DNA of 64,000 nucleotides, taken from contig NZ_BCNB01000005.1 of NCBI RefSeq assembly GCF_001485575.1, positions 1 to 64,000 on the forward strand. Direction: 5' to 3'. Numbering within the stretch: the stretch's first letter is position 1; the number at the start of each line of letters is the position of its first letter. A model generated the notes under the pieces. It was given only the letters and a program-made list of their open reading frames with translations, searched no databases and was not told where the DNA came from. The position numbers and the translations under genes are program-made. Positions 23,696 through 49,301 of the stretch are shown one piece after another. This DNA comes from Haloarcula sp. CBA1127 (GTDB lineage: Archaea; Halobacteriota; Halobacteria; Halobacteriales; Haloarculaceae).

Positions 23696-23720
23696 TGATC
23701 TATCTCCGGGACACGCTCTC

Positions 23721-23757
23721 GGGCACGCCCCAGCACCTCCACTGGGGGACAGAAAAT
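23721..23757 (-). promoter_or_regulatory. Leader hairpin copy 16 (long form)
   Basis: CCCCAG (23728-23733) and CTGGGG (23742-23747) form the first stem, followed by ACAGAAAAT. About 30 further bases with a GCGTGCCCGAGAGCGTGTCC-type second hairpin precede the ATG at 23695. Confidence 0.75.
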
Positions 23758-23760
23758 TGA

Positions 23761-24327
23761 CTACTGCTGTTGGGACCGCGTTCTGTATCTCTCTGGCGGG
23801 TAAAAGACGACGTGAATAGCAGAACCAAGGTTGTACCACGATTTCGGGAGAACAGAGACTTCTAGCCCCCACTCGGAAGCGAACTCGAAGACGTCGAACC
23901 ACAGATTGTGGGGTGGCTCTTGCGATTCCAGTCGCTCGATATTGCCGGGGTAAACGTGCATCGAGTACAACGCCGGCTCACCATCGTCAAGCCAGAGTGT
24001 CGAGTGATCGTCTGCTGGCGGGCTGTGAGGCGGTCCCTTCGGGTCGCTGTCGGCGTCAAGCGGCGAGTGCGGGCACTCATCGTCGCCCGTAATGAGACGC
24101 CGTATGCAGGCTGTCTCAGCAGGCTCATCGAGGTCGAAGGCTTGGGCAAACGCATCGCGCTGAAACTCGCCCATGATCGCGCCGAGCGCCCGCCAGATGT
24201 CGTCCCATCTTGGGTCCTCTGGCTCGTGATCGAGGTAGTCGTGGACGGCCTCGCGCAGCTGCCGGTACTCGTCCCACGCCGGAACAGGCTCGTTCGGGCC
24301 GGGTGTCGGCCAGTCAGTGCGGTCCAT
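23761..24327 (-). CDS. Unrecognised 188-residue acidic protein
   Basis: From the ATG at 24327 the protein is rich in Asp, Glu and Pro. It has a helical N-terminal part (EYRQLREAVHDYLDHEPED) and a C-terminal strand-rich part (GLEVSVLPKSWYNLGSAIHV). No motif was recognised. The leader keeps the second-hairpin sequence (GGCGTGCTGGCGTGTCCC) but I do not see the TTTTGTG box, so expression may differ. Inverted repeat copy B lies just upstream. Confidence 0.6.
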   Translation of the reverse strand: MDRTDWPTPGPNEPVPAWDEYRQLREAVHDYLDHEPEDPRWDDIWRALGAIMGEFQRDAFAQAFDLDEPAETACIRRLITGDDECPHSPLDADSDPKGPPHSPPADDHSTLWLDDGEPALYSMHVYPGNIERLESQEPPHNLWFDVFEFASEWGLEVSVLPKSWYNLGSAIHVVFYPPERYRTRSQQQ

Positions 24328-30791: not shown

Positions 30792-31247
30792 ATGTCAACC
30801 CAAACTAACGCACCGAACGAATCGACCTCACAACCAACACTCTACACTCACGCAAAGCGCCGATTCGCTGAAGCGTGGCTCACGCCCGGCGTGCGACCGG
30901 CAACGCAGTTGCTGTTGATCCTCACGCTATTTGCTGGCTCTGCGATGGGCCAGACCGATGTCGGGAACATTTACTGCAACACAGCTGTCGAAGACGGCGT
31001 CAACGTCGTCTTTGGGGCTCTGGCTGGCCTTGGCCTGCCGGCGACGATGGTCTTCGTCGGTCGGAGCGGCCTGTCGTATATGCGGGCCTCTGGCAACCCG
31101 AACCAGCAAAACGAGGCCCGGCGGGACCTCATCCTCTCGCTCGTCGGTCTGGGCGTTGTTGTGCTGGCAATCGTGGCTCCAGAACTCATCACGAAGTTCG
31201 GGGACAACGTCGGCTTCGGCTTCTCGGACTGCGTGACGCCATTCTAA
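30792..31247 (+). CDS. VirB2-like pilin candidate, conjugation operon gene 1
   Basis: The protein has 151 residues from the ATG at 30792. A hydrophobic segment (TQLLLILTLFAGSAMGQTDV) looks like a signal or membrane helix ending in a possible cleavage site. Two more helices follow, with NVVFGALAGLGLPATMVFVG and DLILSLVGLGVVVLAIVAPE. Size and layout fit VirB2/TrbC-type pilins of type IV secretion. It leads an operon with VirB6-, VirB4- and VirD4-like genes. The pilin assignment is from layout and context, not from a sequence signature. Confidence 0.55.
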   Translation: MSTQTNAPNESTSQPTLYTHAKRRFAEAWLTPGVRPATQLLLILTLFAGSAMGQTDVGNIYCNTAVEDGVNVVFGALAGLGLPATMVFVGRSGLSYMRASGNPNQQNEARRDLILSLVGLGVVVLAIVAPELITKFGDNVGFGFSDCVTPF

Positions 31248-31256
31248 GCACACACA

Positions 31257-33329
31257 ATGCCCTCACTCCGCTCAGTGCTGGTGACCGCGGCCCTTTGCTC
31301 GCTGCTTTCGACAGCCGCAGCTGCGGGGCCTACGTCTGGGACTACCGGCCCGGCCCAGATCCAGACTGAGCGGGGGACGGGACACTTCCTCATCGGTTCG
31401 AGCCACGGTGGCGTGGGGGTACTACAACAAAACGCCACCGCACCGAATGGCTCCAGCGGAGAGGGAACGGAAGCGAACGACACTGAAACAAACGAGTTCA
31501 GTGGCCGTGACCCAGCGGCCAACGGAACGGCAGCCAACGAAACCGCGGGCAATGAGTCCGTTGACCGAGAGCCGGCAACGAACCAGACAGGCGTGAATAG
31601 GTCCGTCAAAATGGGAGCAAGGCAGAACCTCAGCGCGAAAGTCTCGTGCTACGAGAATGCCTCAAACCCACCAGCAAACGCCTCTGTTGGGGACAACGCG
31701 ACGGCGGGTGTTCTCCCACCTAACCGGTCGTACAACCACAATCACACGTTCTTCCGTGCCCTGTGGTCTGGCGACCCCGATCATCCAGACCTCACACGGG
31801 CCGACCGGGCCGAGAACGGCACGCTGGCTGTTCTGCCTTCATGTACGGGAGATATGCTCTCTCGCGAACCGTCGAACACGACGCTGTGGAACCGGCCTGA
31901 ACACGACTCGTTCCGGACTGGTATCGAGACCTCCTCGCAACCAGTGAACGTCACGGATACTCGCTCTGGGCTCTGGATTCGTGACGCCTACGTCACGTTC
32001 TTTAGCGTCGAACCATCGACGGTTGTCCATCGAGGGTCAGGTACGACGCGTCTGGTCCGTCCAAATGGGACCGTTCGTTCCATCCATGACTACCGGGTGT
32101 ACATTTCGGAGTTCTTCGAGGACGACTTCCGAGTGGTGAACACGTCGACGAACACGACGCTGTATGCCAACGGCACTGCAATGGACAACAGCACTGCCGC
32201 CCAGCCCACGCTCAACTATACCGAGATCAACGGGACGACTGAACTCCAGTTGGTGACGACGATCTCGACGAATCTCTCGGAGATTGACGATGATGAGATT
32301 GATGAGTACGAACTGACGGTCACGGACTCACAGACGGTCCAAGTAGAGAATCTCTCCGAGCGGGAGATGGTCGTCGAGCCCGGCGTCGTTCCGAACGGCA
32401 GAGGGGCCACGACTGACGACTATCGAATCGGGACTGTAATCCCCGGCAGCTGGCAGAGCGTCCAGTTCGATGCCGGATACGAGGTCCGGAGCAAGTGGCG
32501 GTTCTATACCCGCTCACCGCCCGGCTGGGAAAACTGGTCGGAGAACACGACGACGCCAGTAAGACCGCTTGAAACCCATGCTGTCCGGGCTACGGAAGGT
32601 CCAGAAGTCACGGTCAACCGCGTTCAGAACGAGAGTTCCGACGGCTGGCGGTTCGTGCCATCACTGGAAGCAGTGTATCCGACGAATGCGACTGTGAACA
32701 CGACGGGGAACACGACCGCTAACGGGACCAACAGGACCACGCTCCCACCAGAGATTCGGGTCAACCGGTCGGCGTCGTTCACAACCACGGATCGGTTCAC
32801 GATTCGGAGTGCGGAGCAACTCCGGACAGAGAACTTCGAGATCAACGGACTCGTCCGCGGAAACAGTATCGAACAGCCAGCGGACTCGACGAACCCGACG
32901 CCAATCCGGGAGGTTAACATCACCTCTGAGGTCGTCAATTCGACCGACAACTCGACGGACCTGCTGGTCAGGGTCGAACCGAAGGCTGGCTTCCCGATTG
33001 CGGCAGGGAACGTCACTGTCGCAACGGGACAGTCACGGGTCGAACAATCACTCTCTGGCGATGATGAGGTCACCGTCACTGTCGACCAGGGCGAAGTCTC
33101 CTCGGCGATAGTCACGTATCGTCCGACCCAAATCTGGTGGGAGCAAGGGCGTGTTGTCCCGGTTCGGGACACGCAAGAACGCGTTGCGTATGAGGTGGCT
33201 CTTCCGGACCTTTCGGAGTTCATCGACCTCGCTGTAGTGACGCTCCTGACGTTGTTGCCGGCTGTGCTGGCGCTGTATGGCTACGACGTCTGGACGAGAG
33301 GCAAATTTGTTGGTTGGTATAATCCATGA
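31257..33329 (+). CDS. Large secreted, membrane-anchored protein
   Basis: The protein has 690 residues. A signal peptide (LVTAALCSLLSTAAAAGP) starts it and a single helix (LAVVTLLTLLPAVLALYGYD) near the C-terminus anchors it, so most lies outside the cell. The N-terminal 150 residues are rich in Asn, Thr and Glu with many Nx(S/T) sequons, suggesting heavy N-glycosylation. The rest is strand-rich. It may be a conjugation-apparatus or surface component. No known family. Its stop overlaps the next start by 4 bases. Confidence 0.6.
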   Translation: MPSLRSVLVTAALCSLLSTAAAAGPTSGTTGPAQIQTERGTGHFLIGSSHGGVGVLQQNATAPNGSSGEGTEANDTETNEFSGRDPAANGTAANETAGNESVDREPATNQTGVNRSVKMGARQNLSAKVSCYENASNPPANASVGDNATAGVLPPNRSYNHNHTFFRALWSGDPDHPDLTRADRAENGTLAVLPSCTGDMLSREPSNTTLWNRPEHDSFRTGIETSSQPVNVTDTRSGLWIRDAYVTFFSVEPSTVVHRGSGTTRLVRPNGTVRSIHDYRVYISEFFEDDFRVVNTSTNTTLYANGTAMDNSTAAQPTLNYTEINGTTELQLVTTISTNLSEIDDDEIDEYELTVTDSQTVQVENLSEREMVVEPGVVPNGRGATTDDYRIGTVIPGSWQSVQFDAGYEVRSKWRFYTRSPPGWENWSENTTTPVRPLETHAVRATEGPEVTVNRVQNESSDGWRFVPSLEAVYPTNATVNTTGNTTANGTNRTTLPPEIRVNRSASFTTTDRFTIRSAEQLRTENFEINGLVRGNSIEQPADSTNPTPIREVNITSEVVNSTDNSTDLLVRVEPKAGFPIAAGNVTVATGQSRVEQSLSGDDEVTVTVDQGEVSSAIVTYRPTQIWWEQGRVVPVRDTQERVAYEVALPDLSEFIDLAVVTLLTLLPAVLALYGYDVWTRGKFVGWYNP

Positions 33330-34174
33330 CAAAGCAAGATATACCACGAAATAGCAGTATCGACCGTAGAACAGTACTGGGACTCCTCAGCGGGAGTCTT
33401 GCCACGCTTGCAGGATGCAGTGGCGGGCTGTTTGATGACAGTGGCGGAGACGGCGGAAGTGCCAGCCCGCCAGAAGAGCAGTCCGACTACATCGAAGAAA
33501 CATCGATTGAGATTGTCGAGAACGGCCGCCAATTGGCTCTGGAGGTGGCTGTGACCGATGAGATCGAGCCGTCATCGGTTAGCATCATCACAGAGTCCGG
33601 TCGGGAGTTCTCCAGCGACTACTTCAGCTCCGGTGAAACTCGGACACGCCTCTCACTAACAGAAGGAGAGGACTCGTACGAACCGCTGCCTCGGGGCCAG
33701 CACACGCTCTATCTCCGTGGGGATGACGTTGAAACTGAACTCCCACTCGAACTGGGCACCACGTTTGAGTTTGAGGAAATCGTCCCCGGGACTGAGCATG
33801 AAGAGATCCGCGACGATAGCCTAGGGATGGTTGTCCGGAATGTGGGCCAGCGAACTGGCGCAGCAACGCGGACAATCCTCAACGGAGAAAACAAAGACAG
33901 CAAGGCATTTGAACCAATAAAGCCGGGTGAAACCGGGATTGTCGAATTTACTTTTCTCCTCGCTGATGGCCCGCACTGCGTAAAAGTTGAAGAAACAACT
34001 CTAAGAGAGGAGGAATTGACTGTTGGATTCCTCTGGAGTGACCCGGTTACTGTCATCCAACCTATACAGTATACCGACAGGTTTGACAGCACCGGTAACG
34101 GGTGCAAACGAACCCTAGCTGGTGAGCCAGAAGAGGTCACCACAACCCCGACAAAGACGGAGATGGAGACGTAG
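33326..34174 (+). CDS. Tat lipoprotein of the conjugation operon
   Basis: The protein has 282 residues. The N-terminus is a clear Tat lipobox signal: twin arginine in DRRTVLGLLSGSLATLAGC with the lipidated Cys at about 31. A Gly/Ser/Asp spacer follows, then a strand-rich domain with IEIVENGRQLALEVAVTDE and CVKVEETTLREEELTVGF. It is exported folded and tethered to the membrane outer face. Its position between a surface protein and VirB6 suggests it belongs to the cell-envelope part of the transfer machine. Confidence 0.7.
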   Translation: MTKQDIPRNSSIDRRTVLGLLSGSLATLAGCSGGLFDDSGGDGGSASPPEEQSDYIEETSIEIVENGRQLALEVAVTDEIEPSSVSIITESGREFSSDYFSSGETRTRLSLTEGEDSYEPLPRGQHTLYLRGDDVETELPLELGTTFEFEEIVPGTEHEEIRDDSLGMVVRNVGQRTGAATRTILNGENKDSKAFEPIKPGETGIVEFTFLLADGPHCVKVEETTLREEELTVGFLWSDPVTVIQPIQYTDRFDSTGNGCKRTLAGEPEEVTTTPTKTEMET

Positions 34175-34176
34175 CA

Positions 34177-35853
34177 ATGCAGTCGGAAATTGGTGAAGAA
34201 ATCGTTAAGGAAATCGTCGAGAGGGCAATTAGAGAACTCTCATCGGCAATTACAGCTGGTATCAGCGGCTTCTTTGCTCAACTTAAAACGCAGATAATCA
34301 ACTATCTTGATGGGTTTTTCCAAGCCATTATTGATCCGATGGTGCGGACGCCTGCTCCTGAAGGACCGAATTCAGCAGCCCCTGTCGACATTGCATTTGA
34401 GTCTGCGAGTAATGCCCCATGGGACTCGCTAATATCGGGTATCTATTTTGAGGGGGTAGTCGGCCTGGCGCTCGGACTGCAGTTCATCGTCTTGGCGATG
34501 ATTGGGCTTAGATATGGGTCGATGAACCCGGTTATCCGGAAGAAACTCCTACGTCGCCTCGGAGTCGCATTTCTTTCGCTGTTCTTCTGGCTCCCAGTGG
34601 CCTCACTGGGGACTCAGTTCTTCGACGCTATCGGAAATGTAATCTACCGTTCCGGTCAGTCGAAAGAAGAGATCGCTACACTAATCAGCTCAGCCGAGCA
34701 AATTGCGGAGCTCAGTCTGGGGATATTCGTCGTTCTGATGATCGTCGGATTGTACGTCTACCTGAAGGCGGCGTTCATCTTCATCACCCGGTGGCTGCTG
34801 GTCTTCCTGATGACCCTCTCGATGCCGCTGGTCGCGACGTTCTGGGCAGTCGAAGTCTGGCCACTGAACCGCTTCTCGGGGCTGGCAAAACAGGTCGCCG
34901 GCGCGTATCCCGGAGTCCTTGCTGCGGGCATCCCACCTGCAATCCTGATACGAATGAGCTTCGAGGCAACGAACTGGGGACTCCCCTCTAAGTTATCGCT
35001 GTTCATCAGCCTCGTGACGCTGTACTTGGCGGCAAAATCACAGAAGATCCTCATCCAGCGTAGTAGCCGCGTTGCGATTCAAGTCAGCGAACAGGCACTC
35101 GCCGGTGGCAAAAAGCCACTCAAGGTGGGTGCGGCGGCCACTGGTGCAGCGGCGACAGCCGGCGCTGGAGCGGTCGGTGGCCCCGGCGCAGCAATGGCGA
35201 CGGGTGGCACGATTCGAGCTGCCTCAAGCGCTGCAAAAGGGCGTGTCGGCAGTGCTGCCACGGGTGCCCAGATGGTCCACCGCCAGATGGCTGCTAACCC
35301 CGCTGGCATGAAGAGGGGTTCCAATAACACCGGCCCTACCGGTTCCGGCGGCGGCAGTAGTCCTACCGGCTCCGGAGGTGGCGGCAACAGTGGTTCCGGC
35401 GGCGGTGGCTCAGGCGGTTCAGGCGGTTCCGCTCCGCCCTCTGGCGGCGGCAGTGGCAGTAGCGGGTCCGGTGGCTCTGGTGGCTCACCGCCCTCTGGCG
35501 GGTCCAGTAGCTCATCTGCCGGAAGTGCCCTCAACAGCAGGTTCACTAATGGGAGTTCGTCCGGGGACTCTGAGAGCGACGACACCCCGATTAGTGAACG
35601 CCAGACGAAGATTGAGCAGCAAACCAAGATGGAGCGCCAGACGCAGATCAACTCCGGCGATACCAGAGTGTTCGAGTCCGACTCAGCCCCGCCGTTCTCC
35701 GACGACGACTTCGACGAGAACGATACTGAGACCACGGACTCCGATGAATCCGAGTCGTATGACACGCTCAAAGACGTGTTTGCGACTGATGACGATGTAT
35801 TAGGGCCGGATGTGTATCGCGACGGCCTGCCCCACCGGGAGGATGACGACTAA
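34177..35853 (+). CDS. VirB6/TrbL-like membrane protein with long linker tail
   Basis: The protein has 558 residues. Six or so hydrophobic segments (about 90-310) include VVGLALGLQFIVLAMIGLRY and LGVAFLSLFFWLPVASLGTQ. An Ala/Gly-rich linker precedes a very Gly/Ser/Pro-rich stretch (about 375-450) and an acidic C-terminus. This matches VirB6/TrbL proteins, which form the inner-membrane channel of conjugation systems. The low-complexity tail is unusual and may be a flexible docking arm. Its stop shares a base with the start of virB4 (TAATG). Confidence 0.65.
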   Translation: MQSEIGEEIVKEIVERAIRELSSAITAGISGFFAQLKTQIINYLDGFFQAIIDPMVRTPAPEGPNSAAPVDIAFESASNAPWDSLISGIYFEGVVGLALGLQFIVLAMIGLRYGSMNPVIRKKLLRRLGVAFLSLFFWLPVASLGTQFFDAIGNVIYRSGQSKEEIATLISSAEQIAELSLGIFVVLMIVGLYVYLKAAFIFITRWLLVFLMTLSMPLVATFWAVEVWPLNRFSGLAKQVAGAYPGVLAAGIPPAILIRMSFEATNWGLPSKLSLFISLVTLYLAAKSQKILIQRSSRVAIQVSEQALAGGKKPLKVGAAATGAAATAGAGAVGGPGAAMATGGTIRAASSAAKGRVGSAATGAQMVHRQMAANPAGMKRGSNNTGPTGSGGGSSPTGSGGGGNSGSGGGGSGGSGGSAPPSGGGSGSSGSGGSGGSPPSGGSSSSSAGSALNSRFTNGSSSGDSESDDTPISERQTKIEQQTKMERQTQINSGDTRVFESDSAPPFSDDDFDENDTETTDSDESESYDTLKDVFATDDDVLGPDVYRDGLPHREDDD

Positions 35854-38800
35854 TGGCTGATAACGAAGAATACAATACGAACATCATCCACGAATCCCTC
35901 GGAGATTCGACCAACTTTTGGGGAGACTACACGCTGGGGGAACTCATCCTGTTCCTCATCCCGCCGTTTGGCTTCCTCGTCGCGATGGGGATGCCGTTCG
36001 TACCAGCGGCGCTGTTCTTCCCAGCGTTGGCTCTCACAGCGGTCGTCGAGGTCTTCCTCTATATCCTGCACAAAGTCCGTCCGGACCACTATCGGTTGAC
36101 CGAGTGGCTGCGAGTCAAACTGTTTTGGCTCGTGAAAAAGCGGCAGTACACTCACGGCCAGGGGAATCAGGACACTCGGCAGGTCACGCGACTAGAGCGG
36201 GTCATGCCCCACGGCATTGAGCGCGTCGACGGAGCGTACGTCGGCGCGGTCGAGGTCGAGCCCGCCAATATGTCGTTGCAGGACGACGAGAAATGGAATA
36301 AAGCCGTCAAGTCGCTCACACGCCTGTCTGAATCCCTGACTGGCCGGGCGAAACTCCACGTCACGACGGCCGAGGTCGATAACGAGTCCCATATCCAGGC
36401 ACACGTCGACCGACTCGACGACCCCGACGCGGAGAGCCATTCGATCTTCCGGGGAGTCCTCATGGAGTTCGTCAACCGCTACACCGACGACAGCGGCAAC
36501 GTTGAGACTGAGACTGAACTCCAGCGCAAGTACTACATCGTCGTTTGGGTCACTGACGACGATATTCACGACCTCCAGATGAACAGCGACTCCATCGCGG
36601 ATTACTTGACTGGGATACCGGTCATTGGGCGGCTGTTCACTCGATTCGACAGTGACACGCTCACTGATGCCGAGCGAGAGGAGTTTAAGGCCAAGAAACT
36701 CCACGACCGGCTCGAAACCGTCGACAGAGCAGTCAACAATATGTTCCGGTGTCGCAGCCGGTCGGTCAGCCCCCACGAACTGGCCCACTTGACCGAGGAC
36801 TACTGGGCCTGCGAAACCCGGTCGGAACGCGAGTACGAAGAGGCGTCCTCCGTCTCCCCGGTGACATACTCCGCGCGGGAACTCATCAAGCACGGCGAGG
36901 GTGCTGCAGCCCACGACGCTGCGGAGGGCATGGACACTGACGACGTTGGCGGGACCGACTACGAGGTCGACGAGACTGACTTCGTCTCCCAGTTGCATAG
37001 ACCGGGAGAGAACCACCGGTCACTGGTCGCGCCAACAGATATCGAATGGGAAGCCGACCACGCCCTCATCGATCAGGAGACGTACACGCGGTGCTTCTGG
37101 ATCGAGACGTATCCCGAACATCCGACAAGTGGGATGCTGGAACAACTGCTGCTGGATACGGAGCTTGCCGTCGACGTCTCAATCTACGTTGATCCCTACG
37201 ACTCGGATGCAGCAGTCTCGGTGATGAAAGAGTGGATCTCGTCGCTGAAGATGCTGCAAAACGACAAGGGAGAACTTGAGGCTGAAGATATCGAGCAGGA
37301 GGTCAATCAGGCGAAGTACATCCGGCAGATGGTCCGGCGCAACCACACGTCGCTGTTCCGTGTCGGCGCGTTCATCCGGTTGACTGCCGAGACCGAAGAG
37401 GAACTGCGGAAGCAAACGAACCGGCTCGAAACGCTGCTGCGGGACTCGCCGTCGAACTGTGGGGTCAAGCGAACGACCCGCCGGCAGGAAGCAGGACTGG
37501 TGACAGTCTCGCCGATCGGAGCCAACGAACTCGGGCAGAACCGGCTCTCCTCGATGACTGGGGAAGCGCTCGGGTCGCTGTTCCCGTTTTCGTCGAACTA
37601 CCTGCGGATGGACGACGGAATCGAGTACGGACTACACGGGCACAACGACTCCTCGCTGTTGATCGACCCGTGGGCACTGGAAACCGGCCACTCTGAGCTG
37701 GTGACTGGGATGCCTGGCGGCGGAAAGACTCACGGCACGCAGGCTCGGGCGATGCGGATGCTGAAAAAGCGGTCGGACGTCAAGCAGATCTACGTCGACC
37801 CGGTCGGGGATATGCACGGCAGTGCGAAGATGCTGGATGCAAAGACGATCACAATCAGCGGCGAGACGCCGCTGAATCCGTGCGAGATGCATCCGACGCC
37901 GCCTCATGTTCTTGAACAGTCCCCGGATATGCAGCCCGTCTCAGCAAAAAAAGACGAAGTGTACGGGGTCATCGAGAACTTCCTGCAATCGCGGGATGTC
38001 GACTTGGAGATGCACAGCGGACTCATCACGTTCCTGATCGACACGATCTTCGCTGAGTCCGATATCGACCCAGCGGACCCGTCGACGCATACGCCGGCGA
38101 ACTCGCCGGACTTGAGCGATTTCTTGGAAGTTGTCGACCGCCTGCAAGCAGACCCGGGAATGTTCCCCGGAGCAACGACGGAGTCCTCTCAGGAGAAAAT
38201 CCAGCAGTACGCAAACGAACTCTCGATTGCGCTGCATCCGTTCCGGCCGGGAAGTACGTTCGGCAATCTCTCGAAAGAGTCGGACCTGCGGCTGATCGAC
38301 GACAGTAGCAAGGCTGTCTATCTGGATCTCCAGCAGGTCGAAGGCTCGGGCAGTGGCCTCGGCAAGCAGTCGTTCATTATGCAGTTGCTGTTGTCGACGC
38401 TGTACCAGCAGGCGAAAAATATGCAGCAGAAGGTCGAGATCATCATCGACGAAGCTCACTACCTGTTCAACGACGACGCGAACTTGGAGTCGCTGAACCA
38501 GATTGCTCGGCACCAGCGCCACGCCGGACTGCGGCTGGTGATGCTGTCCCAGACGCTCTCAGAGTTCGAGGACAAGGGCGCTGCTGAGGAAATTGCGGGG
38601 ATGTGTCCGATCAAGGTGCATCACCGCGAGCCAGAGCTAGGTGATGAGACCGCGAAAAGCGCTGGCCTGACGAGCGAACAGCAGTCCTACATCCAGCACG
38701 CTGAAGCCGGGAAAGAGTCACTGGGTGACGGACAGGGCTATTCGCAAGCACTGGTCCGCGTTGATGAACACGGCGATTACCCGCTGACGATCAAGACGTC

Positions 38801-39104
38801 GTGGGAAGAGAAGCAGATTATCGACCTCGACGCTGATGCGGAAGATGCGCTGGACGTTGTTGCTCACGAGGTTGATCCCCACGTTGCTGACTTCGAAGAG
38901 TTCGTCCATTCCAAAGCAGTCGAGCAAGAGCTAACGAATCACGGATTATCGCCTGAGAAGGCTGAACACGTCCTCAATGATCTTAGCGAAGATGAGTTGG
39001 TGGACGTGGTGTCTGTAGCACTTGACCAGGCAGAGCCGGATGCAGTTATCGCCGATGGTGGTATCGAGGCAGAGACTGATTTCGAGTTCGGAACTACGGA
39101 GTGA
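35853..39104 (+). CDS. virB4: VirB4-like ATPase with fused PrgI/VirB3-like N-terminus
   Basis: The protein has 1083 residues. The N-terminal 90 have two membrane helices (LGELILFLIPPFGFLVAMGM) like VirB3/PrgI. The main body has Walker A GMPGGGKTHGTQ (about 620) and Walker B KVEIIIDEAHYLF (about 860), with RHQRHAGLRLVMLSQ further on, all typical of VirB4. VirB4 powers pilus assembly and DNA translocation. The fusion of VirB3 and VirB4 is known in other conjugation systems. The acidic C-terminal extension (about 1000-1083) is extra. Confidence 0.9.
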   Translation: MADNEEYNTNIIHESLGDSTNFWGDYTLGELILFLIPPFGFLVAMGMPFVPAALFFPALALTAVVEVFLYILHKVRPDHYRLTEWLRVKLFWLVKKRQYTHGQGNQDTRQVTRLERVMPHGIERVDGAYVGAVEVEPANMSLQDDEKWNKAVKSLTRLSESLTGRAKLHVTTAEVDNESHIQAHVDRLDDPDAESHSIFRGVLMEFVNRYTDDSGNVETETELQRKYYIVVWVTDDDIHDLQMNSDSIADYLTGIPVIGRLFTRFDSDTLTDAEREEFKAKKLHDRLETVDRAVNNMFRCRSRSVSPHELAHLTEDYWACETRSEREYEEASSVSPVTYSARELIKHGEGAAAHDAAEGMDTDDVGGTDYEVDETDFVSQLHRPGENHRSLVAPTDIEWEADHALIDQETYTRCFWIETYPEHPTSGMLEQLLLDTELAVDVSIYVDPYDSDAAVSVMKEWISSLKMLQNDKGELEAEDIEQEVNQAKYIRQMVRRNHTSLFRVGAFIRLTAETEEELRKQTNRLETLLRDSPSNCGVKRTTRRQEAGLVTVSPIGANELGQNRLSSMTGEALGSLFPFSSNYLRMDDGIEYGLHGHNDSSLLIDPWALETGHSELVTGMPGGGKTHGTQARAMRMLKKRSDVKQIYVDPVGDMHGSAKMLDAKTITISGETPLNPCEMHPTPPHVLEQSPDMQPVSAKKDEVYGVIENFLQSRDVDLEMHSGLITFLIDTIFAESDIDPADPSTHTPANSPDLSDFLEVVDRLQADPGMFPGATTESSQEKIQQYANELSIALHPFRPGSTFGNLSKESDLRLIDDSSKAVYLDLQQVEGSGSGLGKQSFIMQLLLSTLYQQAKNMQQKVEIIIDEAHYLFNDDANLESLNQIARHQRHAGLRLVMLSQTLSEFEDKGAAEEIAGMCPIKVHHREPELGDETAKSAGLTSEQQSYIQHAEAGKESLGDGQGYSQALVRVDEHGDYPLTIKTSWEEKQIIDLDADAEDALDVVAHEVDPHVADFEEFVHSKAVEQELTNHGLSPEKAEHVLNDLSEDELVDVVSVALDQAEPDAVIADGGIEAETDFEFGTTE

Positions 39105-39109
39105 TTCAT

Positions 39110-39487
39110 ATGAGTGAAAAAGTTACAATTCGGATGAGTGCAGAGCAGCGAAAACAGATCGTAAAGCAGGCTAACAAAGCGGGTGAAGGGGTTTCAGAGT
39201 ACATTCTGAAAGCTGCGGAACGGCGTATTTCGAGCGAACTACAGGAACAGCGTGCGGGGGAATTAAACCTTGGATCGGAACTGGAGTACATCGCTGATGC
39301 CGTCGTAGAAGACGTTGATGAAGCAACAAACGTTGACACGGATCAGGAACTGTTCTACTCGGTCGCTCTGTGGGATTTAATTTCCTCTGAGTTCCCGGCA
39401 GACAAGCGCGCTACTGCGATGGAAGAAGCGACAGATAAACTAGAGGATGAGGTTGAAACCATCCGAAACAAGGAGGGTCAGGAATGA
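39110..39487 (+). CDS. Small RHH-like protein, possible relaxosome accessory factor
   Basis: The protein has 125 residues from the ATG at 39110. VTIRMSAEQRKQIVKQANKA followed by GVSEYILKAAERRI has the strand-helix-helix shape of ribbon-helix-helix DNA-binding proteins. The second half is acidic and helical. It precedes a paralogue and a HUH relaxase candidate, and in many conjugation systems RHH proteins bind oriT next to the relaxase. It overlaps the next gene by 4 bases. Confidence 0.6.
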   Translation: MSEKVTIRMSAEQRKQIVKQANKAGEGVSEYILKAAERRISSELQEQRAGELNLGSELEYIADAVVEDVDEATNVDTDQELFYSVALWDLISSEFPADKRATAMEEATDKLEDEVETIRNKEGQE

Positions 39488-39957
39488 CTGAGAGAGACAC
39501 TCTACTCCAGATTTATACGAGTGAAGAGAACAAAGAATTGTTTGACCAGTTGGCTGACGCCGCGGGGACATCCACCTCCGAATACGGACACGAGGTTATC
39601 GAGGAATACGTTGAGTGGGAGACTGGAGAGAGTCAGTATCAGCGGTACAGCACTAACACAAAAATCGAAGTCTTGCTGGAGGAGGCAAAGCGCGAGGTGA
39701 CAGAGCTGTTAGAAGAATTTGAGTCTGGAACAATGGAGGAGGTAAAAACCGTCCAAAAAGTCCGGACGGCATACACTATCGCGATCTGGAAACTGATTCA
39801 AGATGACTACTCAGCTGAACAGCGACGGCTTGCGCTGAAATTTGCCGGCGAGCATGTTGGGAGAGATCCAGACACAGAATCGCAAACACCAGACGAGGAA
39901 AGCAACCCTGATTCAGATGCCTCGATTGCCGCCGAACCGGCAGGTGAGAGTGCATGA
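39484..39957 (+). CDS. Paralogous RHH-like protein
   Basis: The protein has 157 residues and shares the layout of its neighbour: LLQIYTSEENKELFDQLADA, GTSTSEYGHEVIEEYV, then a helical region (VQKVRTAYTIAIWKLIQDDY) corresponding to FYSVALWDLISSEF in the other. The pair looks like an old duplication. The C-terminus is disordered and acidic. A role at oriT with the relaxase is inferred from position. Its stop overlaps the relaxase start. Confidence 0.55.
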   Translation: MTERDTLLQIYTSEENKELFDQLADAAGTSTSEYGHEVIEEYVEWETGESQYQRYSTNTKIEVLLEEAKREVTELLEEFESGTMEEVKTVQKVRTAYTIAIWKLIQDDYSAEQRRLALKFAGEHVGRDPDTESQTPDEESNPDSDASIAAEPAGESA

Positions 39958-40709
39958 TGCTGAAAACAGATTATCAGGAGGGTGGTGCAGGGAACCTCGT
40001 CGATTACATTCAGCGTGTTCGCGAACAGGACGCCGGCGCGGCAGTTGACCTCCGAAACCCAGCTGGGCGAGAACTGTCTGACTCAGAGGTGAATCGGTTT
40101 GTCAACAAGAGCCGCGAGTTCGGATTCCAGCGGCATTTAATCGTCTCGCCAGATCCCACAGGACAATATTCGCCAGAAGAAGTCCGTGATAACACTCGGG
40201 AACTGGTGAATAGCGGGCTGGCTCAACAACCGACAACCGACTGCGTGTATGGTGTTCACCGAGACACAGAGTTTCCCCATGCACATATCGCGGCGACTGG
40301 CGAGCGTGCGGAATTAGAAATGGGTCGGGAAGATATCCGACAGATGCGCGAACAAGCAGCGACTGCGTTTGAAGAACCCGCTCGAACACGCGACCCAACG
40401 GCTGCCGCCCGTGATTCTCCCGAGGACATTGGCCGGGTCGTGGATGAAGAAGCACGGGAGCAGTACCACGAGGCAGAACTAGCGTTGAACCCCGAAGCGG
40501 AAAAAGCGCTCAAACGGGCGACTGAGAAGAGTCAGCAGAAAGACGCCGGACAGCCCACGGCTGAGAAAGCGACCGATGAGCGCCAAACTGAGCCACTCTC
40601 AGAGCGTGCTGGGGAGAGGACCGAAGAGCAACCGGAACCTGAACGCGAACCCGAAGTTGATCTTGAACGCGAGCAGGAACCCGAGCGCGAAGTTGGGTGG
40701 TGGCAGTGA
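39954..40709 (+). CDS. HUH relaxase candidate (MobA/VirD2-like)
   Basis: The protein has 251 residues. It begins with LKTDYQEGGAGNLVDYIQ (possible catalytic Tyr in the first 20 residues), continues with FQRHLIVSPDPTGQYSPEEV and then YGVHRDTEFPHAHIAATG (residues about 99-116), where three His give the HxxxxxxHxH metal site of HUH relaxases. The C-terminal 110 residues are highly charged helix without motifs. A relaxase nicks oriT and pilots the strand. It is small for a relaxase, so DNA recognition may need the RHH proteins just upstream. The next gene is the coupling protein. Confidence 0.7.
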   Translation: MMLKTDYQEGGAGNLVDYIQRVREQDAGAAVDLRNPAGRELSDSEVNRFVNKSREFGFQRHLIVSPDPTGQYSPEEVRDNTRELVNSGLAQQPTTDCVYGVHRDTEFPHAHIAATGERAELEMGREDIRQMREQAATAFEEPARTRDPTAAARDSPEDIGRVVDEEAREQYHEAELALNPEAEKALKRATEKSQQKDAGQPTAEKATDERQTEPLSERAGERTEEQPEPEREPEVDLEREQEPEREVGWWQ

Positions 40710-42922
40710 GTTCGAGTTCCTCTGCACCACCAGGACAACGCTCCGGGGAGGTTCCGAATAGCCTCAAGTACGACAACGTCGTCGGGTTCGTCTGGGCCGG
40801 ATTTATGCTGTTGTTCCCGCCGATGATCGTCGATAGTGACAAGGTCCTTCCGAAGCGGTTCTGGGCGTGGCGCTACATCTACCTCGGGTTCGGACTGATT
40901 AGTGTGGCGTTCTTCTACGACGTGCTGGTCCAGACACCCAGCGTCGCATTGCTATTCCCATTCGCACACGTTCTGGCTGCCATCTCGGTCGGGACACTGT
41001 TCGCTGACTTCACCGTGCCCGGCCTGTCGCTGCCGATGCTCTCGTACTCGAATACGGTGATTCTGTATGCTATCTCAATCGGTATCGTGTTCTCCGGGGA
41101 GCTGCTCCGCCGGACATCGCCGGAAATGCTCGCGATGAACCAGTGGGACCACGACGACGGGGAGTCCGTCGTCCCGCTGGAAGAGGTCTCTCACGAACAC
41201 AACGAGGCCGAAATGCCGTTCACCCTCGATCAGGATGTCTCTACAGCCGTCGTGGGCGAGACTGGTTCGGGGAAGACGTCGATGATGAAGCTGCTGGCCT
41301 ACCAGTTCCCATACTACAGTAACACGGCAGTCATCGCCCACGATACTGGTGAGGACTTCCAAGCATTCTACGAGGAGCTGGGCTTTGAGGTCCAGCGCAT
41401 CCGCCACGAAGATAGCGATGTGGTCTGGAATCTGTTCAAGGACGCTGATTCAGAGTCGGACTTCCGTGAGGTCGCCGGCGCGATCTTCGGCGAAGCCGAC
41501 GGCCACGACCCGTTCCACCGGCCCGCCAAACAGACCTTCGCGGAGATGCTGATGTATCTGCATCTCAGCGCGAAAAAGAACAACCGCCGCCATGCGCTCT
41601 GTCACGCCGATATCGTCTCCTTGCTCAACGAGGGCCACATCGCGCTGAAGGAAGCCCTCGACGAGTTTGACCGGTTGGACTCGGGTCATATCGACCCTGA
41701 CAAGGGGAAAGGCGCACAGAACGTTTACCAGACGATCAAGGAGAACGTCGATCCCGTCTTCACCGGCGACTTCGGAGACTACGGGGAGTTCTCGCTGCAA
41801 GAGTACATCGAGAACCCCGAAGGACGGGTCCTCATCATTGACTCGAACCCGACGGAACTGGAAACGCTTGGGCCGATGTATCAACTGCTCGTGGACTGGT
41901 CGATCCGCTACGCGATGAACGCCTCGAATCCCACGGTCCACATCCTCGACGAGATTGACGCGCTGCCGGCGCTCACGCAGGTAACGAACCTCACGGCGCG
42001 AGGCCGGAAACACAAGGCTCGGGCACTGGTCGGCGTACAGACAATCGGCCAGCTCAAGGACACGTACAGTACGATCTCTGGGATTGTCGGCAACTGCCCA
42101 CAGGGAGTCTACTTTGGTCCGGGTGACAGTGAGTCGACGGACTTCATCCTCGACGAACTCGGCGAGAGTCGGCAGTATGATCGCTCGGAGATGGTCTCGA
42201 TGAGTCACCAGGGGCGTGGCGAGAACCCACGAACGCAGGCTCGGGACACGTATAAAGAGAAGGACAAAACGCCGGTCACGTCCGGCCTGCTCCGAGACTT
42301 CCAGCCCGGTGAGTGCGTTGCCGTCTCTCGGACGACGTGGGTCCACGGGCAGTCCTACGAACTGGCTGACGTTCGCGACAGCCTCCCGGCGCAGGGCGCG
42401 GAGTCGCCGGGCAGTTCGGAACCAGAGCCAACGGAAGATGACACCGACATAGAGAACGACAGTTGGTTCTCGTTCACTCGGGCTCGACTTGACGATGTAC
42501 TCCGTGGGTCAGTTGGTGAGACCGACGGCGATGAATCCAGAAATAGTGGCCCGGATCGTAACCCGGAAGTCGAGCCGACCGTCGACGCGACAGACGGGTT
42601 GGGCGACGACGATTCCAGTGACCCACTCGACCAGACAACAGCAAACACTGCCGTCACACCTCCGGACACAGACCGCCCAGACCTATCAGGTGAAGAAGAT
42701 GAGTACGACGGTGGCGATCACGACCAGCAGTCCGACGACAACACCGGGGGACTCTTCTCTGATCCGGACCCAGATCCCAGCTTAGGTGGGGCGGAATCTG
42801 CCGAGCAGGAAGGCGGTGAATCACCCACTGAATCAGATGCAGAGGAAGACTCAAACGAGACTGAAGAGCGGGACGAAACTGAGTCAAAAGAGGAGGAGCG
42901 CGACGTATCTGAGTTCATGTAA
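40706..42922 (+). CDS. virD4: VirD4/TraD-like coupling ATPase
   Basis: The preferred start is the GTG at 40706, which overlaps the relaxase stop by 4 bases (738 residues); GTGs at 40697 and 40700 are also in frame. Membrane helices lie in the first 130 residues. The ATPase has Walker A VVGETGSGKTSMMKLL (about 184) and Walker B VHILDEIDALPAL (about 410), with GIVGNCPQGVYFGPGDSEST near the end of the core. The last 200 residues are acidic and disordered. The coupling protein links the relaxase-DNA complex to the VirB channel. It ends the operon. Confidence 0.9.
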   Translation: MSSSSSAPPGQRSGEVPNSLKYDNVVGFVWAGFMLLFPPMIVDSDKVLPKRFWAWRYIYLGFGLISVAFFYDVLVQTPSVALLFPFAHVLAAISVGTLFADFTVPGLSLPMLSYSNTVILYAISIGIVFSGELLRRTSPEMLAMNQWDHDDGESVVPLEEVSHEHNEAEMPFTLDQDVSTAVVGETGSGKTSMMKLLAYQFPYYSNTAVIAHDTGEDFQAFYEELGFEVQRIRHEDSDVVWNLFKDADSESDFREVAGAIFGEADGHDPFHRPAKQTFAEMLMYLHLSAKKNNRRHALCHADIVSLLNEGHIALKEALDEFDRLDSGHIDPDKGKGAQNVYQTIKENVDPVFTGDFGDYGEFSLQEYIENPEGRVLIIDSNPTELETLGPMYQLLVDWSIRYAMNASNPTVHILDEIDALPALTQVTNLTARGRKHKARALVGVQTIGQLKDTYSTISGIVGNCPQGVYFGPGDSESTDFILDELGESRQYDRSEMVSMSHQGRGENPRTQARDTYKEKDKTPVTSGLLRDFQPGECVAVSRTTWVHGQSYELADVRDSLPAQGAESPGSSEPEPTEDDTDIENDSWFSFTRARLDDVLRGSVGETDGDESRNSGPDRNPEVEPTVDATDGLGDDDSSDPLDQTTANTAVTPPDTDRPDLSGEEDEYDGGDHDQQSDDNTGGLFSDPDPDPSLGGAESAEQEGGESPTESDAEEDSNETEERDETESKEEERDVSEFM

Positions 42923-43087
42923 TCCGCTGTTGTGAACTCGTTTCTGTATATAGAGTATCTAATACTTTTGTGCTGTTCTGCGACTGTAATTCTCTCTACT
43001 ACGTTGGTAAGAGTGGATTGCAAGTACGCCCACCCTCTATTTTGTCAGATACCAATACTTACCTTTATTGCTACTATTATATCTCTG

Positions 43088-43182
43088 AAATCGCAGGACG
43101 GCGGCGGTTTTACTCCGGTTTGAATCACCAGCAGTGAATCACCACATCCGACTGAAACAAATCTAAATCGCAAGACGGCGGC
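43088..43182. repeat. 18 bp direct repeat downstream of coupling protein
   Basis: AAATCGCAGGACGGCGGC (43088-43105) and AAATCGCAAGACGGCGGC (43165-43182) differ at one base and are 77 bases apart. A related short string (AAAACCGCCG) lies shortly after. The location next to relaxase and coupling genes makes oriT or an operator possible. Confidence 0.55.
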
Positions 43183-43713
43183 CGAATTATTCACCGAAAA
43201 CCGCCGATGTAAGACACTCTTTATCTTGTCCTTTGGCGATTCAGTCGTGAGCCGGGCGCTAGAAACAACGATACATAAGAAATAGAACATAGGTGCCGGT
43301 GACCAACAGCAAACCTCGGATAGAGTAGAGCCCGCCCACTCAGCCCCCGGCTACAACTATTGGAGAACAGATATGTCTCGACTCACTCCCCAGAGTCCAA
43401 TCGGGACTGCACACGGCGGGCCAGCCCCACCGAACATCATGTGAGTCTACTGTGCCACGCACGTCGCCGGCCACCGACGTCCAAGGCCACGCCGATCACG
43501 ACCTCGTTCAAACTGAGCCAGCGCTGGCAGACCCACGCTCGATCCTCGCTCACTTCGGCCCCTCGTGGCGCATACCTTGTTGCCCACTGACGAGGAACCA
43601 CACCACTTTGTCCGGAGCTTTGTATCTGATTCCCAACAGGTACAATGCACCTTGTTTTCGTACTCACTCAGTAGCGTAATTTAGTGTGGCATTCAGCCGA
43701 GAACCGGTCCGAT
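43183..43713. other. Gene-free stretch with a diverged repeat copy
   Basis: No convincing gene on either strand. Around 43490-43565 there is sequence like the GC-rich dispersed repeat (CTGGCAGACCCACGCTCG), suggesting an eroded copy. The left third is AT-rich. Confidence 0.35.
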
Positions 43714-43950
43714 TCCCGGCGGGGATCGCGCCCGCTACTGCAGGCACGATTGGACCGGCGTGAGGCGCGCGATAGCGCCGAGCGCAGCGCCCCGTCGTCC
43801 GAGTGAGCGCTAGCGAACGAGGACACGACAGACGAGCACCGCGAGGCTGTCAGTGGCGTCGCGCGCTGGGACGTTCCACCTGCCGTCCAGCCTCAGTTGC
43901 GCTCGGGCCGGCAGACCCACGCCTGCGATCTATCCGGGACTCCGTGGGAC
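43714..43950. repeat. GC-rich dispersed repeat, copy R1
   Basis: Begins CCCGGCGGGGATCGCGCCCG, contains GCCGAGCGCAGCGCCCCGTC and a GTGAGCGCTAGCGAACGAGG segment, and ends with GCCGGCAGACCCACGCCTG. About 155 bases recur at R2 and R3, and the 3' part recurs at R4. Confidence 0.75.
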
Positions 43951-44665: not shown

Positions 44666-44707
44666 CTAACCAACAGTATCCGGGATTTCACCGGTTCTGT
44701 TGGTTAG
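44666..44707. repeat. Inverted repeat TAACCAACA family, copy D
   Basis: CTAACCAACAG (44666-44676) and CTGTTGGTTAG (44697-44707), perfect 11 bp arms with a 20-base spacer. It lies just upstream of leader copy 20, as copies A and C lie beside leaders 12 and 17. Confidence 0.8.
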
Positions 44708-44810: not shown

Positions 44811-44968
44811 CCCGGCGGCAGGCCGGAATCGCGCCCGCCACTGCAGGCACGATGGACCGAAGCGAGACGCGCGACCGCGCCGAGCGCAGCGCCCCGTCGT
44901 CCGAGTGAGCGCAAGCGAACGAGGGCACGACGGACGAGCATTGCGAGTCTGGCAGTGGCGTCGCAAGC
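44811..44968. repeat. GC-rich dispersed repeat, copy R2
   Basis: Matches R1 and R3 from CCCGGCGGCAGGCCGG to GGCGTCGC. CCGTCGT and ACGACGG within it can pair. It separates the zinc microprotein cassette from the PQQ-propeller gene. Frames across it are not genes. Confidence 0.75.
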
Positions 44969-45013
44969 TGTCAGCATTATCCGGAAATCAAATCACAAAT
45001 CGAGGAGTGACCG

Positions 45014-46267: not shown

Positions 46268-46380
46268 TGAACGAGCGAGTCTGCCAGTGGCGTCGTGCGC
46301 TGGTGCGCTCCACCAGTAACCCAGCCTCAGTTGCACCCCGGGCGGCAGACCCACGCCTCCGACATATCCGTGAGTCCGTG
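46268..46380. repeat. GC-rich dispersed repeat, partial copy R4
   Basis: Corresponds to the 3' part of R1: TCTGCCAGTGGCGTCGTGCG through GGGCGGCAGACCCACGCCTC and GAGTCCGTGGGA. The 5' half is absent. It lies between the PQQ and PIN genes. Confidence 0.65.
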
Positions 46381-46456
46381 GGAACAATCGTACCGTAATT
46401 GGAATACGGGATGTCGAAGATACGGTCCGGATGTCCTGACAGGGCGTTGAAAATGA

Positions 46457-47732: not shown

Positions 47733-47945
47733 CCCGGCGGCAGGCCGGGATCGCGCCCGCTACTGCAGGCACGATGGACCGGCGTGAGGCGCGCGATAGC
47801 GCCGAGCGCAGCGCCCCGTCGTCCTCGTGAGCGGTAGCGAACGAGGGCTCGACAGACGAGCAGCGCGAGTCTGTCGGTGGCGTCGCGCGCTGTCGCGAGC
47901 CACCAGCCACTCAGCCCCAGTTTCTCCCGGGCCGGCTGGCCCACG
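47733..47945. repeat. GC-rich dispersed repeat, copy R3
   Basis: Same order as R1, from CCCGGCGGCAGGCCGGG via GAGGCGCGCGATAGCGCC to GGCTGGCCCACGCTC. Copies R1 and R3 are more alike at the 5' end than R2. The frames that open across it on the minus strand are artefacts. Confidence 0.75.
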
Positions 47946-48046
47946 CTCACGCACACACTAGGACACCAGCCCTCTCACAGCCTCTACCAGACTGACCAAC
48001 GTCGACGCGACGTTGCAGTGGCGCTCCAGTCCGTGCGCGCGGTTGT

Positions 48047-48155: not shown

Positions 48156-49301
48156 TCAGTCTGCGGAGTGGGCGATGCCGCGATGGGTGGCGGCCCCATG
48201 CTCAGTGTCGAACAGGTCCGAACACTCGGGACAGCGGGCCTTCCCGAGCGTCACGGCGACCGCGCGGTCAGTATCCCGCTCGTTGGCCCACTGATGGGTG
48301 TCTGACTCTGCTTCCCACGACGCCGCCGTTCGGCTTTCGCCGGAGGTGCCAAATGCACAGCCAGCGTGTCCAGTGGGCGCGGGACCGTCGCCGCGCTCGA
48401 TGACGCACATGAGCGTGTCACTCGTGACCGCCACCGTCTTCATGCCGTTGTACTCGTCTGGCTTGCCCCCGGAGATTCGCACCCTATCGCCTTCGTGGAG
48501 CGTGCGGACCATCTCGCCGCCGTGCATGGACTTGCCCCAGACCGTGACCTTCGCGCTCGTACCCTCGTCGTCTTCGAGGTACAGCACTTGGTACTGGTTC
48601 CGAGCGTCTGGCTCCTCAATGATGTGGGTGACTTCACCCTCGACGGTACACTCGTAGCCGTAGGGCGAGACATCCGCGATTGGCGTGGGTGATTCCAGTT
48701 CGTCGCGGGCTTCCGCAAGCACGGTAAAGGACGCCTCATACAGGTCGTCACAGTTGCCCATCTGCCCGGAGACGAGGGCCGCGAGCCGGCGGCTCGCCGC
48801 CGCCTGTGACAGACTGGTCTTGTCTGCGAGCGTTGCGGCCTGCTGGTTGACTCGGGCCAGCGTGTCCCGGTCCATCCACTGCCGGGGGTCAGCCGGCGAG
48901 CGGAAACCGTCGGCACGTTCCGCCTCGGCTTCGGTGAGCTGGCGAGCCGAGGCTTCGCGGTCGGGACCGTCGACGTGAGCGCGTGCGACCTCGGAATGTC
49001 GGGCTTGCTCGGCCTCGCGTCCGTGGCGCTCCTCTTGCTGTTCCAGAGTTTCGCCAAAGTATCGGTTCGGCCCAACCTTGGTCGAGCGCGTCCAGTCGTA
49101 GTCGTATGCCTCCTCCTGACGGGCGTAGTAGTTGCCGCGGCTATCGCTGCCCTTGTTCATCCGGAAATCGAGTTCGTCGCCGTTCTCGGTTGCTGCGACC
49201 TGCTCTAGAAGTTGCTCGGGACCGCCCTCGACGTGGGCGGAGAGGGTAACCGTCTGCTTGCTTGCCGATGCTTTCTTACCGCTGGAATTGGTAGCGTACA
49301 T
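48156..49301 (-). CDS. OB-fold plus C2H2 zinc-finger protein
   Basis: The protein has 381 residues. The N-terminal 170 are charged helix with HGREAEQARHSEVARAHVDG. An OB-fold follows: CTVEGEVTHIIEEPDARNQY, QVLYLEDDEGTSAKVTVWGK and HEGDRVRISGGKPDEYNGMK. The C-terminus has a C2H2 finger CPECSDLFDTEHGAATHRGIAH. OB-folds of this type bind single-stranded nucleic acid, as in RPA. A plasmid ssDNA-binding protein would suit transfer or replication. Two hairpins precede its start. Confidence 0.75.
   Translation of the reverse strand: MYATNSSGKKASASKQTVTLSAHVEGGPEQLLEQVAATENGDELDFRMNKGSDSRGNYYARQEEAYDYDWTRSTKVGPNRYFGETLEQQEERHGREAEQARHSEVARAHVDGPDREASARQLTEAEAERADGFRSPADPRQWMDRDTLARVNQQAATLADKTSLSQAAASRRLAALVSGQMGNCDDLYEASFTVLAEARDELESPTPIADVSPYGYECTVEGEVTHIIEEPDARNQYQVLYLEDDEGTSAKVTVWGKSMHGGEMVRTLHEGDRVRISGGKPDEYNGMKTVAVTSDTLMCVIERGDGPAPTGHAGCAFGTSGESRTAASWEAESDTHQWANERDTDRAVAVTLGKARCPECSDLFDTEHGAATHRGIAHSAD

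Follow-up and report, generated by a model that had tools for sequence, protein, structure and literature searches.

A probable MOBP-like relaxase in the conjugation-type operon of a Haloarcula plasmid and its RHH-relaxase-coupling protein cassette in haloarchaea

Introduction

MOBP relaxases (PF03432; NCBIfam MobP1), among them TraI of IncP plasmids and VirD2 of Ti plasmids, carry a motif I tyrosine in an N-terminal helix and a motif III of the form HxD...PHxH, and they have a NikA-like ribbon-helix-helix (RHH) partner and a type IV coupling protein (T4CP) as neighbour. The same features recur in a 251-residue protein of Haloarcula sp. CBA1127, encoded at 39954..40709 on the plus strand of the 64,000-nucleotide window analysed here (positions 1-64000 of the 119,710-base contig NZ_BCNB01000005.1, G000:C5). 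Its gene belongs to a plus-strand operon at 30792-42922. The operon most probably (a rough probability of 0.8) represents a complete conjugation module in which a minimal archaeal relaxosome, MOBP-like in kind, processes DNA for single-strand conjugation. The haloarchaeal protein differs from known MOBP relaxases in being archaeal, in having a catalytic domain of about 140 residues that scores under the curated MobP subfamily cut-offs, in the tight joining of its gene to the T4CP gene (to which it is fused once), and in the occurrence of HUQ variants.

According to papers of 2023 and 2025, the archaeal conjugative plasmids that they cover have no known relaxase: Sulfolobus pNOB8-type plasmids, Thermococcus pT33-3 and the Ced/Ted DNA import systems share VirB4- and VirD4-like motors with the present operon, but a relaxase has not been identified there (PMC12857230; PMC9905601). 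None has been reported for thaumarchaeal integrative and conjugative elements (ICEs) either, for which a double-stranded DNA proposal is cited (PMC6563490). In 2011, Haloarcula marismortui pNG500 was the one archaeal conjugative plasmid found, and the existence of unknown relaxases in archaea was suggested (PMC3158045); in 2019, a Haloarcula contig resembling pNYT1 was reported to carry a relaxase and TraD, which was called a rare trait of archaeal plasmids (PMC6333295). In addition, 18 MOBP1 domain matches with unassigned hosts were counted in a lake plasmidome (PMC8563766). A first-pass annotation of this window, made by a model from the letters alone, had remarked that relaxases are poorly described in haloarchaea, which is fair, but pNG500 and the Haloarcula contig mean that they are not undescribed.

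The closest relatives of the operon are the transfer regions of pNG500 and of H. taiwanensis pNYT1, which carry the same operon gene for gene, with orthologues of about 91% and 83% protein identity, respectively; no experimental study of them was found in the open-licence literature. The finding is thus not wholly new, since the label conjugative was given to the homologous pNG500 in 2011, and the annotation of some relatives, including the pNYT1 gene, already reads relaxase. In that literature no description was found of residue conservation across the family, of the cassette as a separable unit, of the relaxase-T4CP fusion, of sister operons that contrast in lacking a relaxase, or of the candidate origin of transfer (oriT).

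The Probable Haloarchaeal Relaxase

The protein encoded at 39954..40709, labelled 'hypothetical protein' in RefSeq, matches PF03432 with an E-value of 2.1e-5 (25.2 bits, curated cut-off 24.6). Conservation was assessed in an alignment of 24 diverse haloarchaeal homologues that are 28-83% identical to it. Of these, 23 match PF03432 at E<=0.01 and 19 match NCBIfam MobP1, with best E-values of 6e-11 and 2e-8, respectively. Against MobP1 the window protein itself reaches 0.0024, with 17 bits where the curated cut-off is 200. Because that cut-off is not reached, the protein is filed as a MOBP-like member of a haloarchaeal family and not as a curated MobP1. A search with MOB-family models, which the first-pass annotation had proposed as a check, is therefore positive at the level of the Pfam family and far under the threshold at that of the NCBIfam subfamily.

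Eight positions are invariant in the homologues: Y18, S53, I63, P66, Y99, H102, H109 and L121. The motif I tyrosine near the N-terminus (Y18) and the motif III histidines H102 and H109 are accordingly retained down to 28% identity, and the three-histidine motif III (H102, H109, H111) is complete in the window relaxase. A degenerate pattern for YGVHRDTEFP has a single site (40248-40276), whereas chance alone would give none. In a profile comparison with the N-terminus of IncP TraI (the sequence used is 99.4% identical to annotated TraI records), Y18 pairs with the motif I tyrosine of TraI, and HRDT..PHAH pairs with HHDT..LHIH. The catalytic domain, at residues 1 to about 141 and including Y18, H102, H109 and H111, is under strong purifying selection, with ratios of nonsynonymous to synonymous substitution (dN/dS) of 0.07-0.14 (about 0.1) compared with 0.17-0.28 in the charged tail. 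The enzyme lies in the first 140 residues or so; the tail that follows looks disordered.

An AlphaFold model of residues 1-145 (mean predicted local confidence, pLDDT, 83; predicted template-modelling score, pTM, 0.80) shows the order of elements of a relaxase, beta-alpha(Tyr)...beta(H102)-beta(H109/H111), with the tyrosine in the first helix and the histidine motif on two adjacent strands. In a Foldseek search of BFVD, two matches had a probability of 1.00, one of them named a MobA/VirD2 relaxase (TM-score 0.63, E-value 5e-3). The only PDB match of notable probability (0.54) is a circularly permuted viral Rep domain. Structure prediction, likewise proposed in the first-pass annotation, hence supplied the relaxase order and a named relaxase match but no significant PDB hit, and the model lends moderate support to a HUH relaxase.

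The Rep match bears on another explanation, in which the HUH protein would serve to initiate rolling-circle replication of the plasmid (as a Rep) and would not be a relaxase for transfer. HUH folds are common to both kinds of enzyme, and one of the 24 homologues also weakly matches a Rep (G2P-like) profile. Nevertheless, the tyrosine precedes the histidine motif, as in relaxases, and not the reverse, as in Rep proteins; the profiles matched are PF03432 and MobP, not Rep families; the gene lies between RHH and T4CP genes in all well-preserved copies; and the plasmid carries its own orc1/cdc6 initiator. A Rep function is consequently very unlikely.

An RHH-Relaxase-T4CP Cassette across Haloarchaea

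A homologue profile detects members of the family in 33 of 391 Halobacteria genomes (about 8%), spread over 11 of 86 genera. An independent search of 393 genomes of the phylum with PF03432 gave scores over the cut-off in six, among them this genome and other haloarchaea. RHH, relaxase and T4CP genes stand together in this order in every well-preserved locus among the larger loci and plasmid records examined; the exceptions are L097, where a T4CP was not detected, L109, where none adjoins the relaxase, and L131 and L132, which have weak or partial matches. In Haloarcula the cassette follows, on the 3' side, the genes for pilin, surface protein, lipoprotein, VirB6 and VirB4. Stand-alone cassettes lacking VirB4 occur, for example, on plasmids of Halomarina (16.7 kb) and Haladaptatus (21.4 kb), and in three further loci (L095, L103 and L113) VirB4 is located a few kilobases from the cassette. 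In one genome (L039/L108, G073:C33), relaxase and T4CP form a single open reading frame of 690 residues with an RHH gene upstream; the third motif III histidine of this fusion is glutamine, as it is in the L036/L037 homologues. Relaxase and T4CP distances are correlated across 22 loci (Mantel r 0.795, 0/2000 permutations), and the pair is therefore inherited together. A relative, plasmid 2 of H. jeotgali, is typed by MOB-suite as MOBP and conjugative. The RHH-relaxase-T4CP set is a mobile cassette, found in complete transfer operons in Haloarcula or alone on small plasmids; a scan of IMG/VR revealed no viral carriers. The relaxase call of the first-pass annotation is supported, at the level of homology and genomics, by the combination of a Pfam match over cut-off that extends to 23 of 24 homologues, the invariant Tyr/His-His residues, the linkage to RHH and T4CP genes, the fusion, and a relaxase-order model with its BFVD match.

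Mating pair formation (MPF) operons without this relaxase occur in other haloarchaea. The closest examined, those of Natrinema and Halorussus, encode a VirB4 about 45% identical to that of the window, related surface and lipoprotein genes, and pilin and VirB6 homologues, but neither RHH nor relaxase, and the T4CP gene that comes after VirB4 is a different one. A protein of about 400 residues upstream of the T4CP in these genera was considered as a hidden relaxase and rejected, having no Pfam match and no HUH motif discernible by eye. In Haloplanus, VirB4 is about 31% identical and the surface and lipoprotein genes are related, with HerA-like ATPase and primase genes in place of RHH and relaxase. 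Because these related operons are without the relaxase, an exchange of modules between the relaxase cassette and MPF operons is suggested, not proved.

The relaxase-less relatives also bear on the possibility that the type IV secretion system (T4SS) is no longer conjugative, having turned to protein secretion or become vestigial, with the relaxase as a relic. The closest MPF relatives examined are among those that lack the relaxase, and haloarchaeal conjugation by such a system is not on record in the open-licence literature searched. Against a relic stand the purifying selection and the invariant active-site residues, the intact state of the operon in four plasmids of one genome, the existence of stand-alone cassettes of the mobilization type, and the presence of a near-identical plasmid in two strains, so that this explanation is improbable.

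Several carriers of the family have features of their own. The 16.7-kb Halomarina plasmid (L011, NZ_CP100460.1) encodes, besides the cassette, the large subunit of a phage terminase and a head protein of the Mu F-like type, and it is possibly a virus-plasmid hybrid open to mobilization. The 21.4-kb Haladaptatus plasmid (L010, NZ_CP085343.1) resembles two cassette-bearing units of about 10.7 kb joined head to tail, and its annotation lists the same proteins two times; such a dimer may be either biological or an assembly artefact. Outside Halobacteriales, in small genomes of another family of the same phylum, PF03432-type proteins occur at loci L074 (G643; motif HLDEDHPHVHF) and L079 (G394), which are possibly further archaeal relaxases.

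Gene Content of the Putative Transfer Operon

The operon runs from the start of the annotated pilin gene (30792) to the stop of the annotated T4CP gene (42922), and its gene junctions are mostly overlaps of 1-4 bases or gaps of 2-9 bases. The first gene (30792..31247) encodes a T4SS pilin-like protein of 151 residues with two transmembrane (TM) helices, annotated as 'pilin' in the plasmid copy NZ_CP010533.1; it matches PF18895 at 1.4e-5, just below the cut-off, and the NCBIfam Mbov_0395 pilin at 3.4e-7. It is followed by a secreted N/T-rich surface protein (31257..33329) with a signal-like N-terminus (TM 4-22) and a C-terminal TM helix (655-673), for which a Pfam search gave no match; its position is constant in every MPF operon examined from Haloarcula, Natrinema, Halorussus and Haloplanus. 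A putative Tat lipoprotein (33326..34174) is recognized by its sequence (RR...LAGC) and conserved position. The protein at 34177..35853, polytopic with five predicted TM helices and a Gly/Ser-rich tail, gave no match in a profile search and is named VirB6-like from its topology and position.

The largest protein is a VirB3-VirB4 fusion ATPase of 1083 residues (35853..39104), which matches the VirB4-like CD1110 family at 1.2e-39 and Mbov_0397 VirB4 at 3.9e-29 over residues 23-912; its two N-terminal TM helices, at 32-50 and 55-73, are VirB3-like. Two RHH genes come next. RHH1 (39110..39487) is a NikA-like relaxosome accessory protein, matching PF21983 at 1.8e-7 (31.6 bits, cut-off 27) and, under cut-off, the NCBIfam MobA accessory family at 5e-7. 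RHH2 (39484..39957) has weak NikA-like (0.009) and other RHH matches, and it is the RHH2 type that adjoins the relaxase in most stand-alone cassettes. The relaxase gene, in turn, overlaps that of a VirD4/TrwB/TraD-type T4CP (40706..42922) with four N-terminal TM helices, which matches PF10412 (TrwB_AAD_bind) at 1.2e-29 and PF12696 at 1.6e-10. The starts of RHH1 (39110) and T4CP (40706) are corrected from the annotated plasmid copy.

VirB4, T4CP, pilin and inner-membrane channel genes are hence all in one locus, the channel component VirB6 being assigned by topology. The run of overlapping genes described in the first-pass annotation, from pilin through VirB6, VirB3-VirB4 and two RHH proteins to relaxase and VirD4, is found at the places given there, on the plus strand and with ends overlapping or nearly abutting, and the relaxase has the length and the position between RHH genes and coupling protein that had been reported. 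As to the identities proposed, profiles agree for pilin, VirB4, RHH1, relaxase and T4CP; the names are weaker for RHH2, with its weak matches, and for VirB6, which like the surface protein and the lipoprotein is named from topology and position. The best profile matches of VirB4 and pilin, and a secondary match of the T4CP, are to the CD1110/CD1115 and Mbov ICE T4SS of Firmicutes and Mollicutes, from which the operon differs in being archaeal, in its surface proteins and in scores that lie under the curated cut-offs.

The Plasmid and Its Hosts

The ends of the contig overlap by about 15 kb, and it represents a 104.3-kb circular plasmid. Plasmid unnamed4 of Haloarcula sp. CBA1115 (NZ_CP010533.1) differs from it by 2 substitutions and about 50 small gaps in some 104 kb when gaps are allowed; the 2834 mismatches of an ungapped comparison with the window were discarded as a shift caused by indels, not divergence. 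The best identities in the CBA1127 genome to two other CBA1115 plasmids are 93% and 86% over the stretches compared. Because those two lack a close copy here while unnamed4 is nearly identical, a recent movement of the plasmid between the CBA1127 and CBA1115 strains is suggested. In PLSDB the replicon (the NZ_CP010533.1 copy) is typed 'non-mobilizable' and MPF_T.

Strain CBA1127 contains four related plasmids (contigs C3, C4, C5 and C9). All four have a complete transfer operon and a relaxase of their own, and the relaxases of the co-resident plasmids are 81-92% identical to that of the window. Four conjugative-type plasmids in a single strain are of interest for incompatibility and exclusion. 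In bacterial plasmids, genes for single-stranded DNA-binding and ArdC-type proteins mark the leading region. The present plasmid carries, beyond the candidate oriT, a minus-strand gene (48156..49301) for an OB-fold (RPA/SOSS-B-like) protein, annotated in the SOSS complex subunit B family; its Pfam OB-fold matches are all sub-threshold, and it is kept in 16-19 of 28 related loci. It is possibly a leading-region single-stranded DNA-binding protein. An ArdC-like gene (22736-23902) lies on the same plasmid, farther from the operon.

Candidate oriT and Proposed Mechanism

Some 1.1 kb of DNA on the 3' side of the T4CP gene is noncoding, and 13-23 of 28 related loci share it with a conservation of about 86%. 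Within it, at 43515..43538 on the plus strand, is a candidate oriT core consisting of the palindrome-like GCCAGCGCTGGC followed by AGACCCACGC. The 13-mer core GGCAGACCCACGC, usually with GCC-N6-GGC just ahead of it, was found 8 times in the 4.36 Mb of this genome. Every site belongs to one of the four relaxase plasmids and points the same way, the reversed control gave 0, and 685 kb of unrelated haloarchaeal loci contain no copy of the core. In other genomes its exact sites are mostly, not all, within such regions, with 0-2 reversed control sites per genome.

The noncoding DNA also holds a 205-nucleotide element that is repeated up to four times in a single orientation: a first copy at 43718..43922, which ends in the same core, a partial copy at 44821..44970 (87% identity), the 3' part of a copy, with core, at 46275..46386, and a full copy at 47743..47946 (88% identity), all on the plus strand. 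Between the copies at 44821 and 47743 lies an accessory PQQ-propeller/PIN/HTH module present in just one or two of the 28 related loci. All 13 matches of the element in this genome are on the four relaxase contigs; of 72,556 plasmid records, 12 contain it, and these are exactly the Haloarcula records with the twelve highest-ranking relaxase matches. Strong matches are present in all 16 relaxase-bearing Haloarcula genomes and in one (G051) of the seven without a relaxase, where the relaxase may be unassembled because the contig stops inside the T4CP gene.

The GGCAGACCCACGC/205-nucleotide repeat family is the best oriT candidate, at about even odds. It is just as plausible that the relaxase works on an oriT elsewhere and that the repeats are a partition or recombination site: there are 2-4 copies per plasmid, some of them distant from the operon and flanking accessory genes, and stand-alone cassettes lack the core. 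Conversely, the repeats in this genome are confined to relaxase plasmids, the first copy has a constant place about 0.8 kb after T4CP in most Haloarcula plasmids, and the palindrome with its invariant 3' block resembles a nic region.

Other elements of the region were set aside. The motif AAATCGCAAGACGGCGGC (43088, 43165) has a fixed place 3' of T4CP in nearly all Haloarcula plasmids, yet as oriT or nic site it was rejected for not being relaxase-specific: 62 exact 16-mer matches to the AAATCGCAAGACGGCGGC/AAATCGCAAGACGGCG motif (43088-43105, 43165-43182) are spread over 52 of the 391 Halobacteria genomes, against 0 for the reversed control, and just 2 of 40 inspected loci are beside conjugation genes. 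AAATCGCAAGACGGCG is a widespread haloarchaeal intergenic motif, several of whose loci are, by eye, just upstream of apparent RNase P RNA or tRNA genes. A structured RNA in the 205-nucleotide repeat was rejected (shuffle z-score 0.05, almost no covariation), no Rfam families were found in the window, and there are no conserved inverted repeats with arms >= 7 within 42923-43780. At 44666-44707, a near-perfect 20-nucleotide inverted repeat with a 2-nucleotide gap, CTAACCAACAG...CTGTTGGTTAG, contains a CCAACAG/CTGTTGG pattern seen in this plasmid only, among the loci examined.

In the mechanism proposed for the conjugation module, RHH1 and RHH2 would bind and bend oriT, most likely in the GCC-N6-GGCAGACCCACGC region 3' of the T4CP gene. 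The nick, in one strand, would be made by the HUH domain with the aid of a metal bound by H102, H109 and H111, and Y18 would stay attached to the 5' end. The T4CP would then dock the complex and drive the strand into the pilin/VirB6/VirB3-VirB4 channel. The analysis shows the gene content, the homology, the conserved catalytic residues, the linkage within the cassette and the purifying selection, whereas nicking, the place of oriT, transfer of single-stranded DNA and self-transmissibility are inferred.

Several observations weigh against this reading. The window relaxase is barely above the Pfam cut-off, and every MobP match is far under the NCBIfam cut-offs. Neither the full-length nor the N-domain model has a significant fold match in the PDB, and the BFVD relaxase match carries an E-value of just 5e-3. 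The three-histidine signature pointed out in the first-pass annotation is present in the window protein, but its last member, the third metal ligand, is replaced by glutamine in 3 of the 24 homologues (the HUQ variants). The GGCAGACCCACGC core is not shared by stand-alone cassettes, and the oriT position is inferred from location and specificity only. Finally, finding the same plasmid in two strains does not reveal by what route it moved, and as evidence of self-transfer it is only circumstantial.

Conclusions

A more far-reaching interpretation, which is offered tentatively and may well be wrong, is that haloarchaea have a MOB family of their own. It would consist of a minimal HUH-or-HUQ relaxase in a swappable, sometimes fused RHH-relaxase-T4CP cassette. 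In Haloarcula this cassette would have joined an ancestral archaeal MPF that had no relaxase; elsewhere small plasmids, one of them terminase-bearing, would use it to ride the channels of others. The GGCAGACCCACGC repeat array would be its oriT, where accessory genes also gather. The relaxosome can be a module apart from the MPF in archaea, and because of this the 'non-mobilizable' typing that current tools give to haloarchaeal plasmids, including this one and pNG500, is probably wrong. A defined oriT would provide a gene-transfer tool for haloarchaea. With a conserved relaxase and its RHH and coupling partners in culturable haloarchaea, archaeal conjugation by the bacterial single-strand mechanism becomes directly testable.

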